Below are positions 1 to 36,072 of a DNA stretch of 38,515 bases, one piece after another (within the stretch, counting starts at the first letter, position 1; every line of letters starts with the position of its first letter). The stretch spans positions 46,680 through 85,194 of the forward strand of contig QBML01000023.1 in assembly GCA_003242085.1 (NCBI GenBank), given 5' to 3'. The notes under the pieces are model-generated. The model was not told where the DNA came from, did no database searches, and saw only the letters and a program-made list of their open reading frames with translations. The translations under genes and the position numbers were made by a program. The DNA is from Pseudanabaena frigida. GTDB taxonomy: Bacteria > Cyanobacteriota > Cyanobacteriia > Pseudanabaenales > Pseudanabaenaceae.

Positions 1-2208
1 ACGGCTTGTACTTTTGTGTATCGGTTGTTGAAGTTCGCCAAGGCAAAGCGAATTTTGTTTTTAGTGGATACGAAGAATTTGGGAGAACAAGCGGAACAAG
101 AGTTTTTGAAATATCAGCCGACCGATGACAATCGCAAGTTTACGGAGCTTTATAATGTGCATCGTTTGAGTTCTAGTTATATTGCCTCGGATAGTCAGGT
201 TTGCATTTCCACAATTCAGCGACTCTATTCCATTCTTCAAGGGAAGGAATTGGAGGAATCTGCCGAAGAGACAAATCCTAATGAATCGGTTTGGCAGAAA
301 AAAGAACCTCTGCCCGTAAGTTATTCCATTAAGAACTTCATTGAGCAGTTCGATTTCATCATTATCGATGAATGTCATCGCTCCATTTATAACGTTTGGC
401 AGCAGGTATTGGAATATTATGATGCGTTTTTGATTGGGCTGACGGCTACGCCTGACAAGCGCACGTTTGGTTTTTTTAATCAAAATGTGGTGAGCGAATA
501 CACCTATGAAGAGTCGATCGCGGATGGGGTGAATGTGCCTTATAACGTCTATACGATTGAGACAGAAATTACGAAAAATGGCGCAAAACTGAAGGCGGAG
601 CAGTATATCGATAAGCGTGAAAAACTTTCTCGGAAAAAGCGTTGGGAGCGGCTGGATGAAGACTATGAATATAAGTCGAATAAGCTTGATAAGGATGTGG
701 TCAATCCCAATCAAATTCGGTTGATTATTCAGGAGTTTAAACGCGCATTAAGAGCCGATATTTTCCCCGATCGCATTGATGAGCATGGTGAGTATGAAGT
801 TCCGAAAACGCTGGTTTTTGCGAAGACGGATAGTCATGCTGAGGATATTATTGCGATCGTGCGAGAGGAATTTGGTGAGGGCAATGAGTTTTGTAAAAAG
901 GTGACGTATAACGCCGAAGATCCGAAATCAGTTTTAAATCGATTCCGTAACTCATGGAATCCACGCATTGCGGTAACGGTAGATATGATCGCCACAGGAA
1001 CGGATGTGAAACCGTTGGAAGTGTTGCTGTTTATGCGTGATGTCAAAAGCATTAATTATTTTGAACAGATGAAGGGGCGCGGGACTCGGACGATCGCTTT
1101 TGATGATTTGCAGAGGGTGACGCGCACGGCTAAGTATACGAAAACTCATTTTGTGATTGTCGATGCTGTCGACGCGATCAAGTCTAAGAAAACCGATAGC
1201 CGACCCTTGGAGCGTAAACCGAGCGTGCCTCTAAAGGATTTATTGAATGCTGTGGCGATCGGGGCGCAGGATGAGGACTTATTTTTGACTTTGGCGAATC
1301 GGTTGCTGCGTCTGGATAAACAATTAACGGAACCTGAGCAGGTGAAGTTTGCGGAATTGTCAGGCGGAAAGAATATCAACGCGGTGGTTAAGGATTTATT
1401 GAGTGCCTTCGATCCTGATGCGATCGCGCAGAGATTCAAGTCTTTAGTAAAAGAGATTGCGGTAGGCGATCGCAATCCTGCATTAGAAGAGTCAGCCCAA
1501 AAGCAAGCTCAGTCTGAGTTAGCGGATCTAGCCTCTGCAAATTTCAATGGAGAGTTAAATACCTATATTGACAATTTGCGGAAGGTGCATGAGCAGATTA
1601 TCGATACGATCAATCAGGATCGGATTTTGAAGTCAGAGTTTGATGCTTTTTCGACTGCGAAGGCGGAGTCGGTGGTACAGGATTTTGCGGCATATATTGA
1701 GGCAAATAAGGATGAAATCACGGCTTTGAGTTTGTTTTATGGTCAGCCCTATCAACGGCGGGAGTTGACTTTTAAGATGATTAAGGAGGTGTTAGAAAAG
1801 CTGAAATCAGATAAGCCGATGCTTGCGCCTGTGTATGTATGGGAGGCTTACGCACAGTTGGAAGGAGTGCGGGGCGATAGTCCTAAAAATGAGTTGGTGG
1901 CGCTGGTGTCTTTGATCAGGAGGGTGACGGGCTTAGATCAGGGTTTGACTGCCTATGACAAGACGGTGGACAAAAATTTTCAGAGTTGGGTGTTTGGTAA
2001 GCAGGCGGGTGCGTTGAAGTTTACGGAGGAGCAGATGCGCTGGTTAAGGATGTTGAAGGATCATGTGGTGACGAGTTTTCATGTGGAGTTGGATGATCTG
2101 GACTTTACGCCCTTCGATCGCGAGGGGGGTCGGATGAAGATGTATCAGCTTTTTGGAGATGAGATGGGTGAGATTATTGAGGAGTTAAATGAGGCACTGG
2201 CGGCGTAA
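1..2208 (+). CDS. hsdR: Type I restriction enzyme R subunit HsdR (5' end outside window)
   Basis: This is the ATP-dependent translocase and nuclease subunit of a type I restriction-modification enzyme. The reading frame is open from base 1 (TACTFVYRLLK...), and that stretch matches the segment just after Walker A in HsdR, so the apparent GTG at 16 is internal. The N-terminal nuclease domain and Walker A lie upstream of the window. Counting from the codon at 16, the visible part has a DECH box at residues 118-121, motif III GLTATP at 141-146, and the helicase motif VI region (QMKGRGTRT) near 350. A long helical C-terminal domain follows, as expected for binding HsdM/HsdS. It is the first visible gene of a same-strand cluster with hsdS (2950) and hsdM (5079). 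The order R-S-M reverses the common M-S-R. Function is secure; the true start cannot be given. Confidence 0.95.
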   Translation, partial: TACTFVYRLLKFAKAKRILFLVDTKNLGEQAEQEFLKYQPTDDNRKFTELYNVHRLSSSYIASDSQVCISTIQRLYSILQGKELEESAEETNPNESVWQKKEPLPVSYSIKNFIEQFDFIIIDECHRSIYNVWQQVLEYYDAFLIGLTATPDKRTFGFFNQNVVSEYTYEESIADGVNVPYNVYTIETEITKNGAKLKAEQYIDKREKLSRKKRWERLDEDYEYKSNKLDKDVVNPNQIRLIIQEFKRALRADIFPDRIDEHGEYEVPKTLVFAKTDSHAEDIIAIVREEFGEGNEFCKKVTYNAEDPKSVLNRFRNSWNPRIAVTVDMIATGTDVKPLEVLLFMRDVKSINYFEQMKGRGTRTIAFDDLQRVTRTAKYTKTHFVIVDAVDAIKSKKTDSRPLERKPSVPLKDLLNAVAIGAQDEDLFLTLANRLLRLDKQLTEPEQVKFAELSGGKNINAVVKDLLSAFDPDAIAQRFKSLVKEIAVGDRNPALEESAQKQAQSELADLASANFNGELNTYIDNLRKVHEQIIDTINQDRILKSEFDAFSTAKAESVVQDFAAYIEANKDEITALSLFYGQPYQRRELTFKMIKEVLEKLKSDKPMLAPVYVWEAYAQLEGVRGDSPKNELVALVSLIRRVTGLDQGLTAYDKTVDKNFQSWVFGKQAGALKFTEEQMRWLRMLKDHVVTSFHVELDDLDFTPFDREGGRMKMYQLFGDEMGEIIEELNEALAA

Positions 2209-2214
2209 ATATCT

Positions 2215-2347
2215 GTACTATGATTTGTGTGATTGTTTGGACATGATTTTTGTGATTAAGATGATGGACTATGATTAAAGATTATTCTGGATTGGCTTAG
2301 CCAATCTAAAATCATGGTAATCACATAAATCATAAAAATCATAGTAC
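2215..2347. repeat. Imperfect inverted repeat of TGATT-type units upstream of the GxxExxY gene
   Basis: The ends are complementary (GTACTATGATTT at the left, AAATCATAGTAC at the right). The centre is a perfect hairpin, GATTGGC-TTA-GCCAATC. Between them both arms are built of ATGATT/TGTGATT-like units. It fills nearly all the space between the hsdR stop and the next start codon, so the transcript could fold into one long imperfect stem. A related element lies at 2771-2952. Confidence 0.8.
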
Positions 2348-2353
2348 TAACAA

Positions 2354-2788
2354 ATGATTGATGATGGATACAAGCACTCTGCTCTGACTAGCAAAATCAT
2401 TGGGGCGGCGATGGCTGTGCATACTGGGTTGGGCAATGGTTTTCAGGAGGTGATTTATCAGAGGGCTTTGGCGATTGAATTGGGCGATCGCGATATTGCT
2501 TTTTGTCGTGAGTTTGAGATGCCGATCTATTACAAAAATCAACATATTGGGACGCGGCGGGTTGATTTTTTGGTGGAGGGGATGATTTCAGTGGAGTTAA
2601 AGGCGGTGATGGAGATTTTGGATGTGCATATGGCGCAGGCGATCAATTATCTGGAGGCGTATGATTTGGAGGTGGGGTTGTTGATTAATTTTGGGGCGCG
2701 GAGTTTGCAGTTTAAGCGTTTGTCGAATAAGAAGTTTAAGCAGAAGGCTCAGGGTAATCCGCATATTAGACATGATTTATGTGATTAA
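2354..2788 (+). CDS. GxxExxY family protein (PD-(D/E)XK nuclease-like)
   Basis: A 144-residue protein with the family signature at residues 29-35 (GFQEVIY) and a PD-(D/E)XK-like core, with D71 in RVDFLV and E81-x-K83 in VELKAV. The family is known mainly from sequence. It is common in cyanobacteria, Bacteroidetes and spirochaetes and its role is unproven; nuclease activity is inferred from the fold. Here it lies between hsdR and hsdS and is bracketed by two related inverted repeats. Its last codons (HDLCD then stop) are written in repeat sequence, so the second element overlaps the 3' end. That suggests gene and repeats moved in together. No clear Shine-Dalgarno is visible before the ATG. Confidence 0.85.
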   Translation: MIDDGYKHSALTSKIIGAAMAVHTGLGNGFQEVIYQRALAIELGDRDIAFCREFEMPIYYKNQHIGTRRVDFLVEGMISVELKAVMEILDVHMAQAINYLEAYDLEVGLLINFGARSLQFKRLSNKKFKQKAQGNPHIRHDLCD

Positions 2789-2952
2789 TGTGATGGACTA
2801 TGATTGTTTGGGCAGGATTTATGTGATTAAGATGATGGGCTATGATTTTTTTGGATGGTTGCGTTAATTTGGATTGTTTTTTTAATCATGGTCATCACAC
2901 AATCACGCAAATCATGTAATCATAGACCATCATATAAATCACATAAATCATG
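2771..2952. repeat. Large inverted repeat spanning the GxxExxY stop and the hsdS start
   Basis: The outer 35 nt at 2771 onward match the reverse complement of the last 35 nt ending at 2952 at 32 positions (CATGATTTATGTGATT at the outer edge). The inner arms stay alignable after a 7-nt gap. The stop codon of the GxxExxY gene (2786-2788) lies in the left arm, and the hsdS ATG (2950-2952) is the last triplet of the right arm. A folded mRNA would bury the hsdS start codon. Segments such as GTGATTAAGATGATGG are shared with the element at 2215-2347. Confidence 0.85.
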
Positions 2953-4359
2953 TTAAAGGATTGGATTGAGGTTGAATTAGGGGATGTTTGCGATTTAAAA
3001 AATGGATTTGCGTTTAAGTCGAAAGAGTATGTAGAGATTTCTGAAACTATGAATTTCAGAATGAGTCAAATTCGACCTAATGGAAAAATTGATCTTGACC
3101 ATAATCCGAAATATCTTCCTGATGAGTACGCCTTTTCATATTCTGATTACCTGTTAGAGAATGGTGACATAGTAATTGCTATGACTGATATGGCTTCTGA
3201 TACTAAAATATTAGGAGTGCCAACAATTGTTAAACAAGACAAAAGAAAACTGTTATTAAATCAGCGAGTAGGAAAATTTTTTAACTTAAATACTAATTGT
3301 GTTTATATTCCTTACTTAAGATACATAATCACCAGCCCTCAAATTTATAGCTATTACAAAAAACTGGGGAAAGGAGGAGTCCAAATTAATTTAAGCAAAG
3401 ATGACATTTTAAATGCAAAACTTCCACTTGCGCCACTGCCTGAACAAAGGGCGATCGCTTCAAAAATCGAGCAACTATTCAGCGAACTAGACAATGGCAT
3501 AGCCAACCTCAAAACCGCCAAATCCAAACTAGAAATCTACCGCCAAGCCATCCTAAAACAAGCATTTGAAGGCAACCTAACAAAAGACTGGCGCAAAAAA
3601 CAACCAAAAAATCATGGCAATCATGTAAATCAAAAAAATCACAGTGCAGACAACTTACCTGCAACTTGGAAATGGGTAAAATTATCTGAAGTAGCTAATC
3701 ATATAACAGATGGCGATCATCAAGCACCTCCAAAAGCATCAGAAGGTATTCCATTTATTACTATTTCAAATATAGACAAAAGCACTAATAGAATTGATTT
3801 CTCTAATACATTTTATGTAGAGAAAGAATATTATTTTAATCTCAAAGAAAATAGAAAACCTCAAAAAGGAGACATACTTTATACTGTAACTGGCTCTTTT
3901 GGGATTCCTGTATTAATTGATTTTATAAAAGATTTTTGCTTTCAAAGACATATAGGCTTAATAAGACCATTAGAATCAATCAATCAAAAATGGCTATATT
4001 GGCTACTTCAAACTCGTTTAGTCTATGGACAAGCAAGTGAAAAAGCAACAGGAACAGCACAGAAAACAGTTGCTTTAAGTATTTTGAGAAACATTACGAT
4101 TCCTTTTTGTCCAATTGAAGAACAAAACCAAATTGTCCAAGAAATCGAAACCCGTCTATCTGTCTGCGACAAACTTAACGAAGCGATCGATCAAAGCTTA
4201 GAAAAAGCCCAAGCATTGCGACAAAGCATCCTCAAAAAAGCCTTTGAAGGCAAACTCCTCAGCCAAGACGAACTCCAAACTTGTCGCCAACAACCCGACT
4301 GGGAACCTGCTGATAAACTATTAGAAAGGGTTAAAAAAGATAGCAAAACTAAGAGGTAA
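2950..4359 (+). CDS. hsdS: Type I restriction-modification specificity subunit HsdS
   Basis: HsdS chooses the bipartite DNA target for the methylase and restriction complex. The 469 residues show the usual two-fold layout: first target recognition domain (about 1-155), first conserved helical spacer (PLPEQRAIASKIEQLF, AILKQAFEGNL), second recognition domain from about residue 236 (NLPATWKWVKL, then ITDGDHQAPP), and second helical region (IEEQNQIVQEIETRL, SILKKAFEGKL). The start codon is the last triplet of a large inverted repeat and no Shine-Dalgarno is visible, so translation may depend on upstream ribosomes or RNA folding. The linker between the halves contains a captured copy of the repeat arm (3609-3644). 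Confidence 0.94.
   Translation: MLKDWIEVELGDVCDLKNGFAFKSKEYVEISETMNFRMSQIRPNGKIDLDHNPKYLPDEYAFSYSDYLLENGDIVIAMTDMASDTKILGVPTIVKQDKRKLLLNQRVGKFFNLNTNCVYIPYLRYIITSPQIYSYYKKLGKGGVQINLSKDDILNAKLPLAPLPEQRAIASKIEQLFSELDNGIANLKTAKSKLEIYRQAILKQAFEGNLTKDWRKKQPKNHGNHVNQKNHSADNLPATWKWVKLSEVANHITDGDHQAPPKASEGIPFITISNIDKSTNRIDFSNTFYVEKEYYFNLKENRKPQKGDILYTVTGSFGIPVLIDFIKDFCFQRHIGLIRPLESINQKWLYWLLQTRLVYGQASEKATGTAQKTVALSILRNITIPFCPIEEQNQIVQEIETRLSVCDKLNEAIDQSLEKAQALRQSILKKAFEGKLLSQDELQTCRQQPDWEPADKLLERVKKDSKTKR
3609..3644 (+). repeat. Copy of the TGATT-type repeat arm embedded in frame in hsdS
   Basis: These 36 nt match the right arm of the upstream element (2309-2344) at 31 positions (AAATCATGG.AATCA..TAAATCA). 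In hsdS the segment encodes an Asn/His-rich linker, NHGNHVNQKNH, between the first helical spacer and the second recognition domain. The linker position explains why an insertion there would be tolerated. Confidence 0.75.
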
Positions 4360-4363
4360 CTAT

Positions 4364-4441
4364 ATGCTAATCAACCAACTAAGAGAAAAGCGAGAAAATA
4401 TCTTAGCGATCGCTGCCAAACATGGAGCATTTAACCTATGA
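4364..4441 (+). pseudogene. 25-codon remnant of an MntA-like nucleotidyltransferase N-terminus
   Basis: A short ORF starts 4 nt after the hsdS stop, with a ribosome-binding-like AAGAGG just upstream. It reads MLINQLREKRENILAIAAKH then GAFNL and stop. From memory, this resembles the first helix of many cyanobacterial MNT antitoxins, in which AAKHGA is followed by the strand leading to the GS motif. Here it stops before any catalytic residue. Its TGA overlaps the ATG of the intact mntA (ATGA). I read it as the stump of an earlier mntA allele, replaced by the present one. It could still be translated as a leader peptide coupling hsdS to mntA. Confidence 0.6.
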
Positions 4442-4728
4442 GAAAGCAACAAGCCCTTCATCTTTTAACTATTAGTAAACCATTGTTAAAAGAGAAATAT
4501 GGAGTTACTAAAATTGCACTATTTGGCTCAACTGCTAGAGACACAGCTAATCCAAATAGCGACATAGACATTCTTATAGATTTTGACAGCCCAGCAACAT
4601 CAAAACGTTATTTTGGTGTTCTATTTTATCTAGAAGATCTCCTACAACATCCCATAGATTTAATTACAGAAAATGCATTAAGACCTGAATTGCGTCCCTA
4701 TATTGAGAAAGAAACTATATATGTCTAA
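4438..4728 (+). CDS. mntA: MntA-like antitoxin nucleotidyltransferase (MNT domain)
   Basis: A 96-residue minimal nucleotidyltransferase. The GS motif and arginine are at residues 30-34 (GSTAR), the two metal-binding acids in SDID (D42, D44), and a plausible third acid is D74 in HPIDLI. In characterised MntA-HepT pairs the MNT protein neutralises the HEPN toxin by adding AMP units to a tyrosine beside the toxin active site; the same is inferred here. It follows the remnant ORF with an ATGA overlap and overlaps the start of hepT by 8 nt. It lies inside a restriction-modification operon, between hsdS and hsdM. Confidence 0.88.
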   Translation: MRKQQALHLLTISKPLLKEKYGVTKIALFGSTARDTANPNSDIDILIDFDSPATSKRYFGVLFYLEDLLQHPIDLITENALRPELRPYIEKETIYV

Positions 4729-5086
4729 TTCATCAGAACGTGATTGGCACTTTTATATTAACGATATGATTATATTTGCTCAAAAAGTACTACGCTATAC
4801 CGAAGGATACGATCAAAAAAGCTTTCTTGAAAATGAATTAAACTATGATGCAACTCTAAGAAACCTTGAACTAATTGGGGAAGCTGCCACACACATACCA
4901 CCAGAAATACGTGCAGAAAATTTAGATATTCCTTGGCGACAAATTATCGCAACCCGCAACCGTATCATTCACGGATATTTAGGTATAGATAACAATATTG
5001 TTTGGGACATCATTACCGCAGAAATTCCAGAATTATTACACCTACTACAAAATCTTAGAAATCAAATCAATAATATTAATGAGTAA
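4721..5086 (+). CDS. hepT: HepT-like HEPN-domain toxin (DUF86 family)
   Basis: A 121-residue all-helical HEPN protein expected to be an RNase toxin. The catalytic RX4HXY motif is intact (R79, H84, Y86 in RNRIIHGY), and Y86 is the tyrosine that MntA partners modify. The frame is open back to an ATG at 4703, but the ATG at 4721 (MSNSSERDW) matches the family N-terminus and gives a normal 8-nt overlap with mntA, so I use it. The 3' end overlaps the hsdM start by 8 nt, so toxin and methylase are probably translationally coupled. Confidence 0.88.
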   Translation: MSNSSERDWHFYINDMIIFAQKVLRYTEGYDQKSFLENELNYDATLRNLELIGEAATHIPPEIRAENLDIPWRQIIATRNRIIHGYLGIDNNIVWDIITAEIPELLHLLQNLRNQINNINE

Positions 5087-6608
5087 CGAATCAAACCTAA
5101 TTTCTAAAGTCTGGAACTTCGCCAACATCCTCCGCGATGACGGTGTCAGCTATGGCGACTACCTCGAACAAATTACATACCTGCTATTCCTAAAAATGGC
5201 AGATGAAATGTCCAAGCCACCCTACAGCAAAAAGATTAAATTTCCACGCATCAAAGACGCGGACAATAAAGAAATTCCTGACGGTGAGCTATGTAATTGG
5301 GAAACCCTCACCAATAACAAACGCGGCGCAGAGCTTGAATCCTACTACACCCAAATGTTGCGATCGCTTGCCACCGAAAAAGGCACATTAGGACAAATCT
5401 TCACCAAATCGCAAAACAAAATCCAAGACCCATCGAAACTGCTCAAAATCATCGAGATGATCGCCAAAGAGCAATGGACAATGGTGGGAACCGATGTTAA
5501 AGGCAACATTTACGAAGGACTGCTAGAAAAAAACGCCGAAGACACCAAAAGCGGCGCAGGACAATACTTCACCCCCAGAGCCTTAATCAAAGCGATGGTC
5601 GCCTGTGTGCATCCCCAACCCAGCAAAACCATCCACGATCCCGCCTGTGGTACAGGAGGATTTTTCCTCGCCGCCTATGACTACATCACTACCCATCATT
5701 CCCTAGACCGCGAGCAGAAAGCCTTTCTCAAAAACCGCACCTTCTCAGGCAACGAAATCGTCGCCAGCACTCGCCGACTCAGCTTGATGAATATGTTTCT
5801 GCATAACATCGGCGAAATCGATGGTGAAAGCTTTATCTCTCCCAATGATGCCCTGATCGCCGATAGCGGAATTCGTGTGGACTACGTTTTAGCCAATCCT
5901 CCCTTTGGCAAAAAAAGCAGCATGACCATCACCAACGAAACAGGGGAACAGGAAAAGCAAGACCTCAGCTATAACCGTCAAGACTTTTGGGCAACCACTT
6001 CCAACAAACAACTCAATTTCCTGCAACATATCCGCACCCTCCTCAAAATCAACGGTGAAGCCGCCGTTGTCCTTCCTGATAACGTTCTCTTTGAAGGTGG
6101 CGCAGGCGAAACCGTGCGGAAAGAATTAATGAAAACTACGGATTTACATACAATTCTGCGATTACCCACAGGCATCTTTTACGCCCAAGGAGTCAAAGCA
6201 AATGTCCTCTTTTTTGATAACAAACCCGCCGCCAAAGAACCTTGGACAAAGGAAGTCTGGATTTACGACTACCGTACCAATGTCCAACATACTCTCAAGA
6301 AAAATCCCCTCAAACTGTCAGACCTCAAGCCCTTTATCGATTGCTACACCCCCACCAATCGGCATCACCGCAATGAAACATGGGCAGAAATAAACCCCGA
6401 AGGACGTTGGCGCAAATTTGGCTATGACGAAATTATTGCTAGAGACAAGACCAACCTCGATATCTTTTGGCTCAAGGACAAAAGCCTCGCCGATCTCGAT
6501 AATCTGCCCGACCCTGACATTCTCGCCAATGAAATCATCGAAAACATCGAAGCAGGGCTAGCAAGTTTCCGCGAAATTATGGACACAATCAATGCGATCG
6601 CACTATAG
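5079..6608 (+). CDS. hsdM: Type I restriction-modification DNA methyltransferase HsdM
   Basis: N6-adenine methyltransferase that protects host sites and, with HsdS, forms the core of the enzyme. The 509 residues contain an N-terminal helical domain (SKVWNFANILRDDGVSYGDY), the GQYFTPR segment, SAM-binding motif I DPACGTGG (187-194) and catalytic NPPF (273-276). The frame is open upstream to 4998, but that would run through hepT and add 27 non-homologous residues. The ATG at 5079 begins the conserved N-terminus (MSNESNLISKVW) and overlaps the hepT stop by 8 nt. All motifs are intact, so the methylase should be active. Confidence 0.95.
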   Translation: MSNESNLISKVWNFANILRDDGVSYGDYLEQITYLLFLKMADEMSKPPYSKKIKFPRIKDADNKEIPDGELCNWETLTNNKRGAELESYYTQMLRSLATEKGTLGQIFTKSQNKIQDPSKLLKIIEMIAKEQWTMVGTDVKGNIYEGLLEKNAEDTKSGAGQYFTPRALIKAMVACVHPQPSKTIHDPACGTGGFFLAAYDYITTHHSLDREQKAFLKNRTFSGNEIVASTRRLSLMNMFLHNIGEIDGESFISPNDALIADSGIRVDYVLANPPFGKKSSMTITNETGEQEKQDLSYNRQDFWATTSNKQLNFLQHIRTLLKINGEAAVVLPDNVLFEGGAGETVRKELMKTTDLHTILRLPTGIFYAQGVKANVLFFDNKPAAKEPWTKEVWIYDYRTNVQHTLKKNPLKLSDLKPFIDCYTPTNRHHRNETWAEINPEGRWRKFGYDEIIARDKTNLDIFWLKDKSLADLDNLPDPDILANEIIENIEAGLASFREIMDTINAIAL

Positions 6609-7898: not shown

Positions 7899-7949
7899 CA
7901 AGAAATTTTTTGAAAGTGTTGCTTCGCAACACTTTCAAAAAATTTCTTG
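7899..7949. repeat. Perfect 24-bp hairpin with 3-nt loop
   Basis: The left arm 7899-7922 (CAAGAAATTTTTTGAAAGTG...) is exactly complementary to 7926-7949 around the loop TTC. To its right (7951-8012) lies AGCGCTAGGCGCTGTAA and AGCTATAAATC-type sequence that resembles, in reverse, the flank of the hairpin at 35834. It may terminate the DUF790 transcript, but it also belongs to a dispersed hairpin family. The rest of the interval before the next gene shows nothing recognisable. Confidence 0.85.
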
Positions 7950-17231: not shown

Positions 17232-17285
17232 TTTAAAATTCTCCTTTTTATAAAATATCAATCTACTGATGCGCTAGATTCTAAA

Positions 17286-17360
17286 GATCCCCCCAGCCCC
17301 CCTTATAAAGGGGGGAGAATTTTTCTTCTTCGCCCTTTATAAGGGGGATTGAGGGGGATC
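17286..17360. repeat. Imperfect inverted repeat between nrtB and nrtC
   Basis: GATCCCCCCAGCCCCCCTTATAAAGGG (17286-17312) pairs with the complement at 17333-17360 with few mismatches. C/G-rich repeats with CCCCCTTATAAAGGGGG cores are common between cyanobacterial genes. It could attenuate or stabilise the nrt transcript between nrtB and nrtC. Confidence 0.75.
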
Positions 17361-17363
17361 TCT

Positions 17364-25090: not shown

Positions 25091-27411
25091 GTTCACAACC
25101 AGAGAACAAGCAAGCAGGGCTAGAAAATGTAAATATCTTGGGAGATGCTGATATCAATATCTCCCAAGATATTCATCATGAGCCGAATAAGCTTGCTGAC
25201 AACATTGGTGTCGTAGCTCAAGAAGGGAGTGCTCTAAATATTCGCACTTTCAACTACAACCAAATTATTCAAGAGGCAAAACGGGCAGGAAGCTTGATCA
25301 ATTTGCCGCAGACTAATGTGACTTTCTTTGCAGGACGGGATGAGGATCTGGCAAAGGTGCATGAGCTTTTGCAGAAAAATCAGAGGGTGGCGGTGTCTGC
25401 TTTTGTGAAAGGGATGGGTGGAGTCGGGAAGTCGGAACTTGCCCTGCAATATGCGCTACGGCATCTGTTGACTGACTATAGCGGCGGGATATGTTGGTTG
25501 CGGGGAAATGAGGGGACTTTACCGACGCAGTTACAGGATTTTGTACAGGTGCAGCTTGGGGAAACGATGCCCGATGGTTTGGATAGTGGCGAAAAGTTGG
25601 CAGGGCACTGCTGGCGGAGGCTATCGGAGCGGGTGGAGGGACAGATGTTGGTGGTGTTGGATGATGTGAAAGATTATGGGAATGTGGAACCGTTTTTGCC
25701 AACTCTGGATGGGAAGTTTCGGGTATTAGTGACGACGCGGTTGGGATTGGGGAATGCGATGCAGCAATACACGTTAGATGTTTTAATGTTAGCGGCGGCG
25801 GTGGATTTGCTGAAGTCGTTTTTACCTGAAGCCGATCCGCGTCGTGGGAATGATGGGGAAATCGAGAAGCTTTGTGAATGGTTGGGGCGGTTGCCTTTAG
25901 CGATCGAGTTGGTAGGGCGGTATTTGGCAAGGAAACCCGATCTGTCGATTGCCAAGATGCAGGAACGTTTGAATGAGAAGAAGTTACAGCAAGATGCGCT
26001 GACTGATACGCAGAGAATGGCTTTGGCAGAAATGACCGCTAAGCTAAATGTGGCGGCGGCATTCGATTTGAGTTGGCAAGAATTGTCTGAGGGGGCGCAA
26101 AGGCTGGCTTGTTTGTTGTCGTTGTTTGCGCTAGCGCCGATTCATTGGCAATGGGTAATAGATGCGATGAGTGATGTGGATGAGGAGGAGTTGGAGGCTT
26201 GTCGTGATGATGAGTTGCTAAATCTACATTTGTTGGAACGGAAGCAACAGGGTGTGTATGAATTACATCAGCTTTTGCGGGAATATTTTCATTTTCAGTT
26301 GAAACAACATCCCGAATGGCAAGCTCTGCGGCAACAAGTTGCAATATCTCTGCTGAATATTTCTAAAGGAATTGGACAAACAATCACCATCGATCAAGTT
26401 AAGGAAGTTACTCCTGCGATTCCCCACCTAGAAATGCTCGGGAGCGAACTGTTGGATGATATTCCCAACCCTGAAGAAGATGTAATTTGGACATTTTGTG
26501 GAATAGCTAGATTTTATGGAGGGCAGGGGCTATATGCTTCAGCCTTAATTCCATATCAAAACTGCCTCAATGAAACAGAATCACGCTTAGGAGCAGACCA
26601 TCCCTCTGTCGCCACCAGTATTAACAATCTCGCATTACTTTACTATTCGCAAGGGAAGTACAGCAAAGCTGAACCTTTCTATCTGCGATCACTTGAAATC
26701 AGCGAACGACAACTAGGAGCAGACCATCCTTCTGTCGCCACTAGTCTCAACAATCTCGCGTTACTTTACGAATCGCAAGGGAAATACAGCGAAGCTGAAC
26801 CTCTCTATCTACGATCGCTTGAAATCAGAGAACGACAACTAGGAGTAGACTATCCTGATGTCGCTACCAGTCTCAACAATCTCGCAGAACTTTATCGAAT
26901 TCAAGGGAAGTACAGCGAAGCCGAACTTCTCTATCTACGATCGCTTGAAATCAGAGAACTTCAACTAGGAGCAGACCATCCCGATGTCGCCCAAAGCTTT
27001 AACAATTTAGCATTACTTTACGATTCTCAAGGGAAGTACAACGAAGCCGAATCTCTCTATGTACGATCACTCGAAATTATGGAACGACAACTAGGAGTAG
27101 ACCATCCCGATGTCGCTTCCAGCCTCAATAATCTTGCATTACTTTATGATTCTCAACGAAAGTACAGCGAAGCTGAACTTCTCTATCTGCGATCGCTCTC
27201 TATCAGAGAACGCCAACTAGGAGCAGACCATCCCGATGTCGCCCAAAGTCTATCCAACTTAGCCGCCCTCTATCACAACACCCAACGACATCCCGAAGCC
27301 CTGCAATCCATCCAACGTGCCATCCAAATTTACGAACAAAAACTTGGTACAGAGCATCCCGATACCCAAAATGCTCTCAGTTGGCTTCAGACAATCCAAG
27401 ATGCCATGTAA
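25087..27411 (+). CDS. NB-ARC-TPR STAND NTPase (NLR-like)
   Basis: The 774 residues are organised like bacterial NLR immune sensors. An N-terminal Asn/Ile/Asp-rich region (12-30, VNILGDADINIS) precedes a motif (32-57) shared with the remnant at 24470. The NB-ARC domain then has the P-loop GMGGVGKS (109-116), Walker B MLVVLDD (187-193), VLVTTR (213-218) and the GLPL-like LGRLPLAIEL (266-275). A winged-helix region follows (ELHQLLREYFHFQL), then six 42-residue TPRs from residue 501. No catalytic effector domain is fused. It overlaps hicA by 4 nt. Such proteins bind ligand through the repeats, oligomerise and activate effectors; a role in phage defence is inferred. Confidence 0.88.
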   Translation: MSSQPENKQAGLENVNILGDADINISQDIHHEPNKLADNIGVVAQEGSALNIRTFNYNQIIQEAKRAGSLINLPQTNVTFFAGRDEDLAKVHELLQKNQRVAVSAFVKGMGGVGKSELALQYALRHLLTDYSGGICWLRGNEGTLPTQLQDFVQVQLGETMPDGLDSGEKLAGHCWRRLSERVEGQMLVVLDDVKDYGNVEPFLPTLDGKFRVLVTTRLGLGNAMQQYTLDVLMLAAAVDLLKSFLPEADPRRGNDGEIEKLCEWLGRLPLAIELVGRYLARKPDLSIAKMQERLNEKKLQQDALTDTQRMALAEMTAKLNVAAAFDLSWQELSEGAQRLACLLSLFALAPIHWQWVIDAMSDVDEEELEACRDDELLNLHLLERKQQGVYELHQLLREYFHFQLKQHPEWQALRQQVAISLLNISKGIGQTITIDQVKEVTPAIPHLEMLGSELLDDIPNPEEDVIWTFCGIARFYGGQGLYASALIPYQNCLNETESRLGADHPSVATSINNLALLYYSQGKYSKAEPFYLRSLEISERQLGADHPSVATSLNNLALLYESQGKYSEAEPLYLRSLEIRERQLGVDYPDVATSLNNLAELYRIQGKYSEAELLYLRSLEIRELQLGADHPDVAQSFNNLALLYDSQGKYNEAESLYVRSLEIMERQLGVDHPDVASSLNNLALLYDSQRKYSEAELLYLRSLSIRERQLGADHPDVAQSLSNLAALYHNTQRHPEALQSIQRAIQIYEQKLGTEHPDTQNALSWLQTIQDAM
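26587..27342 (+). repeat. Six tandem 126-bp TPR-coding repeats
   Basis: Six consecutive units start at 26587, 26713, 26839, 26965, 27091 and 27217 (a partial seventh at 27343). Each encodes 42 residues of the form LGADHP.VA.SLNNLALLY.SQGKYSEAE..YLRSLEIRERQ. The middle units are strikingly alike at the DNA level (AGCAGACCATCC and GGGAAGTACAGCGAAGC recur). Such arrays can gain or lose units by recombination. Confidence 0.88.
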
Positions 27412-35833: not shown

Positions 35834-35894
35834 AACCAAGACCAAAAAAAGGAAAGCGTTGCTTTGCAACGCTTTCCTTTTTTTGGTCTTGGTT
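35834..35894. repeat. Perfect 29-bp hairpin with TTT loop
   Basis: 35834-35862 (AACCAAGACCAAAAAAAGGA then AAGCGTTGC) is exactly complementary to 35866-35894. To its left lies TATAGCCATTTTAGTTACAG then CGCTTTGCGC, a flank related in reverse to that of the hairpin at 7899. It sits in the noncoding interval 35737-36123, downstream of the minus-strand TonB-like gene. Confidence 0.88.
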
Positions 35895-36019: not shown

Positions 36020-36072
36020 AAAACCCAAGAGAGAGTTGCGGCGCTTCGCGCCGCAACTCTCTCTTGGGTTTT
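36020..36072. repeat. Perfect 25-bp hairpin with TTC loop
   Basis: 36020-36044 (AAAACCCAAGAGAGAGTTGC then GGCGC) is exactly complementary to 36048-36072. AGGACA (36009) and TGTCCT (36074) extend the pairing beyond an internal bulge. A partial copy of the left arm (ACATAAAACCCAAAAGAGAG) occurs near 35921. It may end the TonB-like transcript, and belongs to the same hairpin family as 35834 and 7899. Nothing else is seen in 35737-36123. Confidence 0.88.

Follow-up and report, generated by a model that had tools for sequence, protein, structure and literature searches.

Hairpin-flanked GxxExxY genes suggest a little-described kind of minimal jumping DNA

Why does a small GxxExxY gene stand between two long hairpin repeats in the middle of a type I restriction locus? 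The question is raised by a stretch of 38,515 nucleotides from the cyanobacterium Pseudanabaena frigida (contig QBML01000023.1; the whole stretch that was analysed is called the window below), in which a unit occupying positions 2212-2956 lies between hsdR and hsdS. The features of this part of the window are as follows (L and G numbers in the text denote loci and genomes):

1-2208, + strand: hsdR, type I restriction subunit, its 5' end beyond the window (PF08463/PF04851; stop TAA 2206-2208)
2212-2353, no strand: left hairpin of the unit (end TCTGTAC, TGATT units, loop, ...AATCATAGTACTAACAA)
2354-2788, + strand: GxxExxY protein gene, 144 aa, predicted PD-(D/E)XK nuclease fold (ATG 2354, stop TAA 2786-2788)
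2766-2956, no strand: right hairpin of the unit (arms pair; scored against shuffles)
2950-4359, + strand: hsdS, specificity subunit (PF01420; ATG within the right repeat)
3610-3654, + strand: solitary right-arm-like stretch with the end CACAGTGCAGACAAC, in frame inside hsdS, translated KNHGNHVNQKNHSADN
4438-5086: nucleotidyltransferase/HepT-like pair, between hsdS and hsdM
about 5091-6608: hsdM, followed by a DUF790 gene

Related genomes carry different genes between hsdR and hsdS.

In the right hairpin, arms 2770-2805 and 2918-2953 are complementary at 33 of 36 positions; the stop codon of the GxxExxY gene falls in the left arm and the start codon of hsdS (2950) in the right one. The left hairpin has outer arms that are 90% paired (2215-2234 and 2328-2347) and also longer, gapped arms (2233-2283 and 2303-2353). 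The right and left hairpins scored 29 and 20, and neither score was reached in 300 dinucleotide shuffles of 2101-3060, where the best hairpin score had a mean of 9.9 and a maximum of 15. The two hairpins are related to each other through 47-nt copies with 77 and 91% identity. An earlier note, made from the letters of the window, had described a GxxExxY gene framed by two related hairpin repeats, and this description holds; its statement that the outer 35 nt of the second repeat match at 32 positions, with the stop codon in the arm, is exact. Matches to the word RTGATTNNNGTGATTA (≤2 mismatches) number 14 in the window, where 2.7 are expected; none of 100 shuffles reached this count, and 13 of the matches fall between 2220 and 3642. 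The octamer GCGATCGC, which we take to be a cyanobacterial mark, is present 55 times (0.31 expected). Four further strong hairpins lie elsewhere in the window, at 35834-35894, 36020-36072, 7899-7949, and 17285-17361 (scores 29, 25, 24, and 22.5, respectively), and a tandem array at 26588-27363 repeats every 126 bp, with 5.2 copies and 83% matches over 26588-27243.

The protein encoded within the unit matched the full length of two profiles, PF13366 (E 1.3e-37, 129.2 bits, cut-off 22) and TIGR04256, the GxxExxY family (E 1.4e-39, 135 bits, cut-off 35); at E 0.001 it matched no other profile and no HUH tyrosine transposase. Six residues (E32, Y35, D71, E81, K83, and Q95) were invariant in an alignment of 48 sequences. 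The PD-(D/E)XK motifs of the window protein are intact, with D71, E81, K83, and Q95 all present, and D71, E81, and K83 form the D ... ExK motif of PD-(D/E)XK nucleases. Motifs of the type D71, E81xK83, Q95xxxY99 characterise Cas4, lambda-exonuclease, and RecB-type nucleases. The AlphaFold2 model of the protein (pLDDT 88.2, pTM 0.83) was most similar in the PDB to 4ic1, which we take to be the Cas4 protein SSO0001 and which aligned over 105 residues at 3.5 A (Z 9.0, Foldseek E 2.4e-4); further PDB matches had Z scores of 7.1 and below, a range for which the tool cautions on common arrangements. By its predicted fold, the window protein is a putative Cas4-like PD-(D/E)XK nuclease. It shares this predicted fold and the D71, E81xK83, Q95xxxY99 motifs with the Cas4, lambda-exonuclease, and RecB-type enzymes; unlike these, the GxxExxY gene stands alone between repeats, and around it in the window lie restriction-modification, nucleotidyltransferase/HepT-like, and DUF790 genes rather than partners in CRISPR adaptation or phage recombination. 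A PADLOC search gave nothing beyond Cas4b at E 0.034, PHROGs a single family at E 0.12, and a search of the PDB with the GxxExxY alignment A1 no sequence relative at E 1. Phages and plasmids were rejected as main carriers, the window protein having matched none of 50,697 records from phages and 8 of 72,556 from plasmids, and a pattern-limited scan of IMG/VR for a viral carrier yielded one relative. In open-access papers we found no described role for GxxExxY proteins; among 5.39 million of them the family name appears in two, a single time in each, and one of these is a mention in passing.

The window genome contains a single GxxExxY gene, and the repeats of the unit were not clearly found there a second time. 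The unit in its type I restriction locus is probably a lone copy, which may be immobile. PF13366 was matched in 15 of 58 relatives. The earlier note had proposed looking for empty sites between hsdR and hsdS in relatives; the hsdR end was found in six of the 26 genomes from this genus, and three of the six (G008, G017, and G002) have neither gene nor hairpins in roughly 1,100 nt each past this end, where they carry other intergenic content. G002 has GxxExxY genes at other places. Gene and hairpins follow hsdR in the remaining three, the window genome, G013, and G021, whose GxxExxY proteins are 91-94% identical. On reading, the left hairpins of these three genomes are strongly divergent, each still self-pairing.

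How far this layout extends was assessed in a set of 80 loci, the best 80 of at least 547 confirmed loci, with one genome per species and, judged by title, mostly from Bacteroidota. Their flanks share a plan in which TGTCTGAAC and TGATT-type words precede the ATG, and the stop codon is followed by the words in inverted form and by GTTCAGACA. Counting matches with ≤2 mismatches to TGTCTGAAC or GTTCAGACA within 500 nt, the left end was found at 60 of the 80 loci, the right end at 59, both at 53, and neither at 14, compared with 99 (left), 128 (right), and 14 (both) of 708 control anchors on the same contigs. A local hairpin with a score of at least 18 within 500 nt was present at 13 of the 80 loci, on both sides in two (L065 and L099); the complete hairpin on each side seen in the window is a minority form. 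Because the arms in other loci often pair across the gene rather than locally, the local-hairpin scan was replaced by flank-to-flank scoring, and flanks were called paired when the complementarity score reached at least 14 within 150 nt. By this measure 38 of the 75 scored loci had paired flanks and 37 fell under 14, compared with 26 of 557 control ORFs with paired flanks. Flanks of the same locus paired better than flanks combined across loci (median 19.0 vs 13.5, 75 loci). Nine of the 80 tblastn ranges contained a stop or a frame shift.

Within the cyanobacterial phylum PF13366 was present in 51 of 244 genomes. The cyanobacterial set comprised 87 loci (28 from the phylum, 18 from the genus, the window's own locus, and 40 fetched stretches) and left out weaker or partial PF13366 matches; a motif rule found the gene in 81 of them and none in L035, L036, L037, L193, L197, and L223. 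Paired flanks were present at 68 of the 79 scored loci and at none of 31 control ORFs. A later batch of 14 stretches contained 11 genes and three stretches without an intact gene; four of the 11 had paired flanks (L347, L351, L352, and L355) and seven scored under 14, with one flank of at least L348 and L350 clipped by the stretch boundary. Over all cyanobacterial genes, 72 of 90 had paired flanks compared with 4 of 84 control ORFs, among which are 1 of 23 added ORFs near PF05635 genes and 3 of 30 ORFs elsewhere in the window's own genome (scores 14.5-15.5; window gene left out). The best-scoring control ORFs of the sets of 557 and 31 include more GxxExxY genes (L113 and L098), two ORFs that are presumably REP/IS200-type transposases (L088 and L082), and what we assume to be a four-helix-bundle gene (L091). 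The phasing of the repeat words was visible as a peak in the base-match rate at lag 9 in the best-80 set (near-gene minus 1 kb away, 0.062) and at lags 8-10 in the cyanobacterial set (near-gene excess over 1 kb away, 0.056-0.065).

In many bacteria GxxExxY genes are accompanied by matching repeats of their own, an association that is well supported. The earlier note had viewed gene plus flanks as a discrete unit and had suggested searching for the repeats elsewhere; they accompany GxxExxY genes in relatives, far beyond the window genome, a check that could have gone against the unit and did not. Among the matches listed, the closest Bacteroidota proteins share 73-77% identity with the window protein and the best cyanobacterial relative outside its genus (L235) shares 75%, levels that are compatible with movement between phyla.

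The repeats fall into several classes of 8-10-nt phased words. The defining words were chosen once the flanks had been read; a class could be given to 143 of 161 loci and not to the other 18, and the later batch of 14 stretches stands outside these counts. With few exceptions, the TGATT, AGGATT, GAATT, and CGGATT classes are found mostly with GNGFQE proteins, the CACRRAG and CGCRRAG classes with GxGLLE, GxGFLE, and GPGLFE proteins, and the GCRGATG class with GVGFLE and GIGFLE proteins. On a protein tree of 160 rows the class changed 36 times compared with a shuffled mean of 84.8, and none of 200 shuffles was as low; the tree, read with eight groups including the unclassed one, rests on few columns and leaves many forks open. 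The class agreed with that of the nearest protein from a different genome in 65 of 77 cases (mean 16.2 and maximum 32 in 1000 shuffles), whereas two genes of one genome did so in 10 of 59 pairs. After homologous sites had been removed by tblastn of the outer flanks, the nearest protein at a non-homologous site still shared the class in 109 of 143 cases (shuffles: mean 41.2, maximum 62); all these class shuffles ignore relatedness. In G193, G223, G272, and G147, the four or five genes of one genome fall into four or five classes. Repeat class follows the protein, not the genome, as is expected if the protein recognises its own repeats. Cognate recognition of the repeats by the GxxExxY protein is likely from these sequence comparisons; co-inheritance as one passive block would likewise yield a class that follows the protein.

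Copies of the ends also exist apart from the gene. The AGGATT-class end TGTCTGAATCAGGAT (1 mismatch, both strands) was counted 139-675 times per genome in six genomes and its reversed-pattern control 0 times; these are counts of end motifs, of which a complete unit has two and many stand in tandem rows. Most of these end motifs are without a gene. The exact 15-mer TGTCTGAATCAGGAT occurred in 17 of 244 genomes and was absent from 227. Where a gene of the AGGATT class was identified, the exact word was found 216 (G147), 201 (G170), 502 (G185), 72 (G195), 90 (G223), and 131 (G272) times, and the other 11 genomes with the word, in which no cognate gene was identified, had 1-67 occurrences (67 in G193) and in some cases gene fragments that could not be classed (e.g. 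L360 in G274). The genomes with an identified cognate gene are richer in the AGGATT end (rank test p 0.0005, relatedness ignored). Solo gene-less units L260 and L272 measure 165 and 169 nt, and in Mucilaginibacter galii the solo unit L158 and the gene-bearing L087 have the same GAATT-type words. The TGATT pattern with 2 mismatches was clearly above its control in only 1 of 10 genomes (G059), and a high repeat copy number is shown for one class only and is not general. The gene-bearing copy looks like the autonomous form and the gene-less hairpins, which are numerous in some genomes and were not seen in the window genome, would be the non-autonomous form. On this point we depart from the earlier note, which had suggested a non-autonomous element for the gene-bearing copy itself.

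Empty, filled, and remnant states were compared at the site of one gene-bearing unit, L234, whose flanks were sought in 16 genomes of its genus; one locus each was examined in 15 of them (all but G185). Twelve loci could be aligned on both sides, and those of G366, G246, and G170 could not. Two of the 12 sites are empty, with 4 and 12 nt between the aligned flanks; four have the gene motif, one of them (G272) in just 413 nt; three (L300, L307, and L308) are gene-less and retain both ends and remnants of the interior in 197-260 nt; and three have other content. The empty and filled sites belong to different species. At the one well-aligned junction no target duplication of ≥3 nt was found; one of 1-2 nt may be present. 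A second site gave a partial alignment only, in G246. The junction between yqgF and an O-methyltransferase gene was fetched as 30 loci from 61 genomes, in a Mucilaginibacter group; by eye it is nearly empty in L186, L166, L184, and L168 (gaps of 1, 6, 24, and 45 nt), contains the gene in forward orientation in L159, L162, L172, L177, and L179, and contains it reversed in L170, L171, and L176. The same junction (L159-L188) also hosts a longer ORF in L165, L173, and L178, presumably DinD-like. Outer flanks are A+T-rich, and the base before an end is most often T. That gene and repeats occur, diversify, and are lost as one unit is well supported by these observations.

The units have a preferred place in operons. 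In the best-80 set, 52 of the 57 left ends with a called neighbour follow a gene on the same strand and 5 follow one on the opposite strand. In 36 of these 52 the upstream stop codon lies between 5 nt before and 45 nt inside the left end, most commonly at 6 or 13-14, and the next ATG lies at -3 to +12 of the right end in 15 of 33 cases. Selection at the RNA level would favour G.T mismatches in paired arms; we counted 93 G.T and 80 A.C mismatches in arms pairing across the gene and 22 and 24, respectively, in local hairpins, so the arms are without an RNA-type bias. Rfam searches of 5 loci gave nothing at the gathering score, and four sub-threshold Rfam matches in window 1800-3800 (best E 0.052) were taken as chance. 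Right-end-like peptides were also seen within long ORFs at L066, at L095, and in the hsdS of the window (KNHGNHVNQKNHSADN).

Among known systems the closest in plan are the RAYTs. Papers on these describe one gene between inverted palindromic repeats, co-variation of gene and repeat, and cognate repeats that are numerous in the presence of the gene (PMC2817692, PMC3733652, PMC8266576), and the REPs are given there as 20-40 bp with GTAG or CGTC tags (PMC3733652). The GxxExxY gene likewise lies between two cognate inverted palindromic repeats, in the window and in relatives, and co-varies with them; cognate-repeat abundance was seen for one class only. Unlike the RAYT (TnpAREP, related to IS200/IS605), the GxxExxY protein has a predicted PD-(D/E)XK-type fold instead of that of an HUH tyrosine transposase, and unlike the REP tags, its ends read as TGTCTGAA-type, TGTC(T/A)GAA, with 8-10-nt phased units. 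By analogy, the GxxExxY unit would work like a REPtron but is not one.

A small ORF within inverted repeats, with a sporadic distribution and proposed horizontal transfer, is also described for the intervening sequences (IVS) of 23S rRNA (PMC4990558). The GxxExxY units resemble the IVS with the S23 protein PF05635 in having one small ORF inside inverted repeats. They differ in that the protein is unrelated and that the IVS lies in 23S rRNA and is excised as RNA, whereas GxxExxY units occur at many loci, the one in the window between hsdR and hsdS, and have no RNA-type mismatch bias. PF05635 itself was present in 114 of the 244 genomes of the phylum. We fetched 30 of its loci (L317-L346), and 23 of the 28 that were scored had paired flanks compared with the 1 of 23 control ORFs; by eye, these flanks consist of reiterated 7-9-nt words in a GxxExxY-like layout. 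The arrangement around PF05635 genes means that a nuclease need not underlie the layout, which weakens the claim that the nuclease is needed; it also suggests a wider class of units. The window genome has one PF05635 gene (G000:C1:94725-95039).

MITEs are short, gene-less derivatives with terminal inverted repeats, and the gene-less GxxExxY copies (L300, L307, and L308) resemble them in keeping both ends and interior remnants. Unlike MITEs, the GxxExxY units have arms of phased short words, no DDE transposase partner was identified for them, and the one aligned site has no target duplication of ≥3 nt. In searches of open papers, the 20 listed of 445 with the end 9-mers and the two with longer repeat words look unrelated to such units by title; the curated TIGR04256 text, outside the scope of these searches, may mention flanking repeats.

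We consider it probable that window 2212-2956 is a minimal REPtron-like mobile unit consisting of a hairpin end, one PD-(D/E)XK nuclease gene, and a hairpin end, and we infer that the GxxExxY protein moves the repeats. On ends folded as single-stranded or cruciform DNA, the nuclease would recognise the 8-10-nt phased words of the class to which its repeats belong, and would cut there; cutting may thereby help both the unit and gene-less copies to be copied, or excised and joined again, at junctions rich in A+T. Such a unit would work as a RAYT/REP pair in which a Cas4/lambda-exonuclease-like nuclease replaces the HUH tyrosine transposase. Copies at the 3' ends of operon genes would persist, since stop codons, and often a start codon close by, come with the end. 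More tentatively, and with rather less confidence than we place in the unit itself, two hairpin ends of 8-10-nt phased words together with a small protein, either the GxxExxY nuclease or the unrelated four-helix-bundle PF05635, could constitute a class of bacterial mobile DNA that we did not find described in the papers searched. Its nuclease form would cut its own folded ends and in this way mobilise itself along with hundreds of gene-less copies, the unit having neither transposase nor integrase nor reverse transcriptase.

The unit could instead be a passive passenger, moved by another system such as an HUH/RAYT-type transposase acting in trans, a reverse transcriptase, or host recombination, with GxxExxY a cargo, maintenance, or defence gene locked between the ends. 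We regard this as unlikely, though a serious contender: the unrelated PF05635 genes have the same layout, and the ends may not need GxxExxY; tens of end motifs are present in genomes without an identified cognate gene; and the presumed REP/IS200-type transposases L088 and L082 have strong paired flanks of their own. Against a passenger speak the tracking of GxxExxY protein by repeat class, both at unrelated sites and among the several genes of one genome, and the copy number of one class, which is highest where its cognate gene class occurs. Less probable still is a homing-type unit, whose nuclease would cut repeat-free alleles at a preferred site so that recombination copies the unit in, the hairpins protecting or regulating the gene. 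PD-(D/E)XK homing nucleases exist, one of them (I-Bth0305I) appears weakly in our fold list (E 0.77), and the same junctions are used repeatedly, such as that of yqgF and the O-methyltransferase gene; one repeat class, however, occurs at very many places per genome, and near-relatives of the gene lie at unrelated sites.

An element acting at the RNA level, with hairpins that serve mRNA stability, attenuation, or translational coupling in the manner of the RNase III-excised 23S rRNA intervening sequences and with incidental mobility, appears very improbable to us. The co-directional placement in operons, the stop and start codons supplied by the ends, and the identity of PF05635 as the 23S intervening-sequence protein family would fit it; the lack of a sense-strand G.T excess over A.C, the empty Rfam result, and the presence of the gene in both orientations at the yqgF junction do not. 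Hardly credible, finally, is the absence of any element, with quasi-palindromes that arise through template-switch mutation, which also keeps them perfect, and that accumulate in accessory operons by chance. The arms do change fast and in concert between related species, and template switching may still help to keep them paired. The linkage of class and protein already speaks against template switching and chance as a full explanation, as do the conserved ends, the gene-less copies with the same ends, the precise empty site, and the rarity of paired flanks around control ORFs.

Our preferred reading, a REPtron-like unit moved by its own nuclease, suggests that hairpin-flanked GxxExxY genes are a little-described kind of minimal jumping DNA, whose ends add tails, starts, and linkers to adjoining genes such as hsdS. 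If GxxExxY proteins are the enzymes of their own hairpin repeats, one account would cover both this protein family and several families of repeats dispersed in cyanobacteria and Bacteroidota, and the question of whether the partner enzyme of a REP must be an HUH transposase would become testable with a small protein and a hairpin oligonucleotide.
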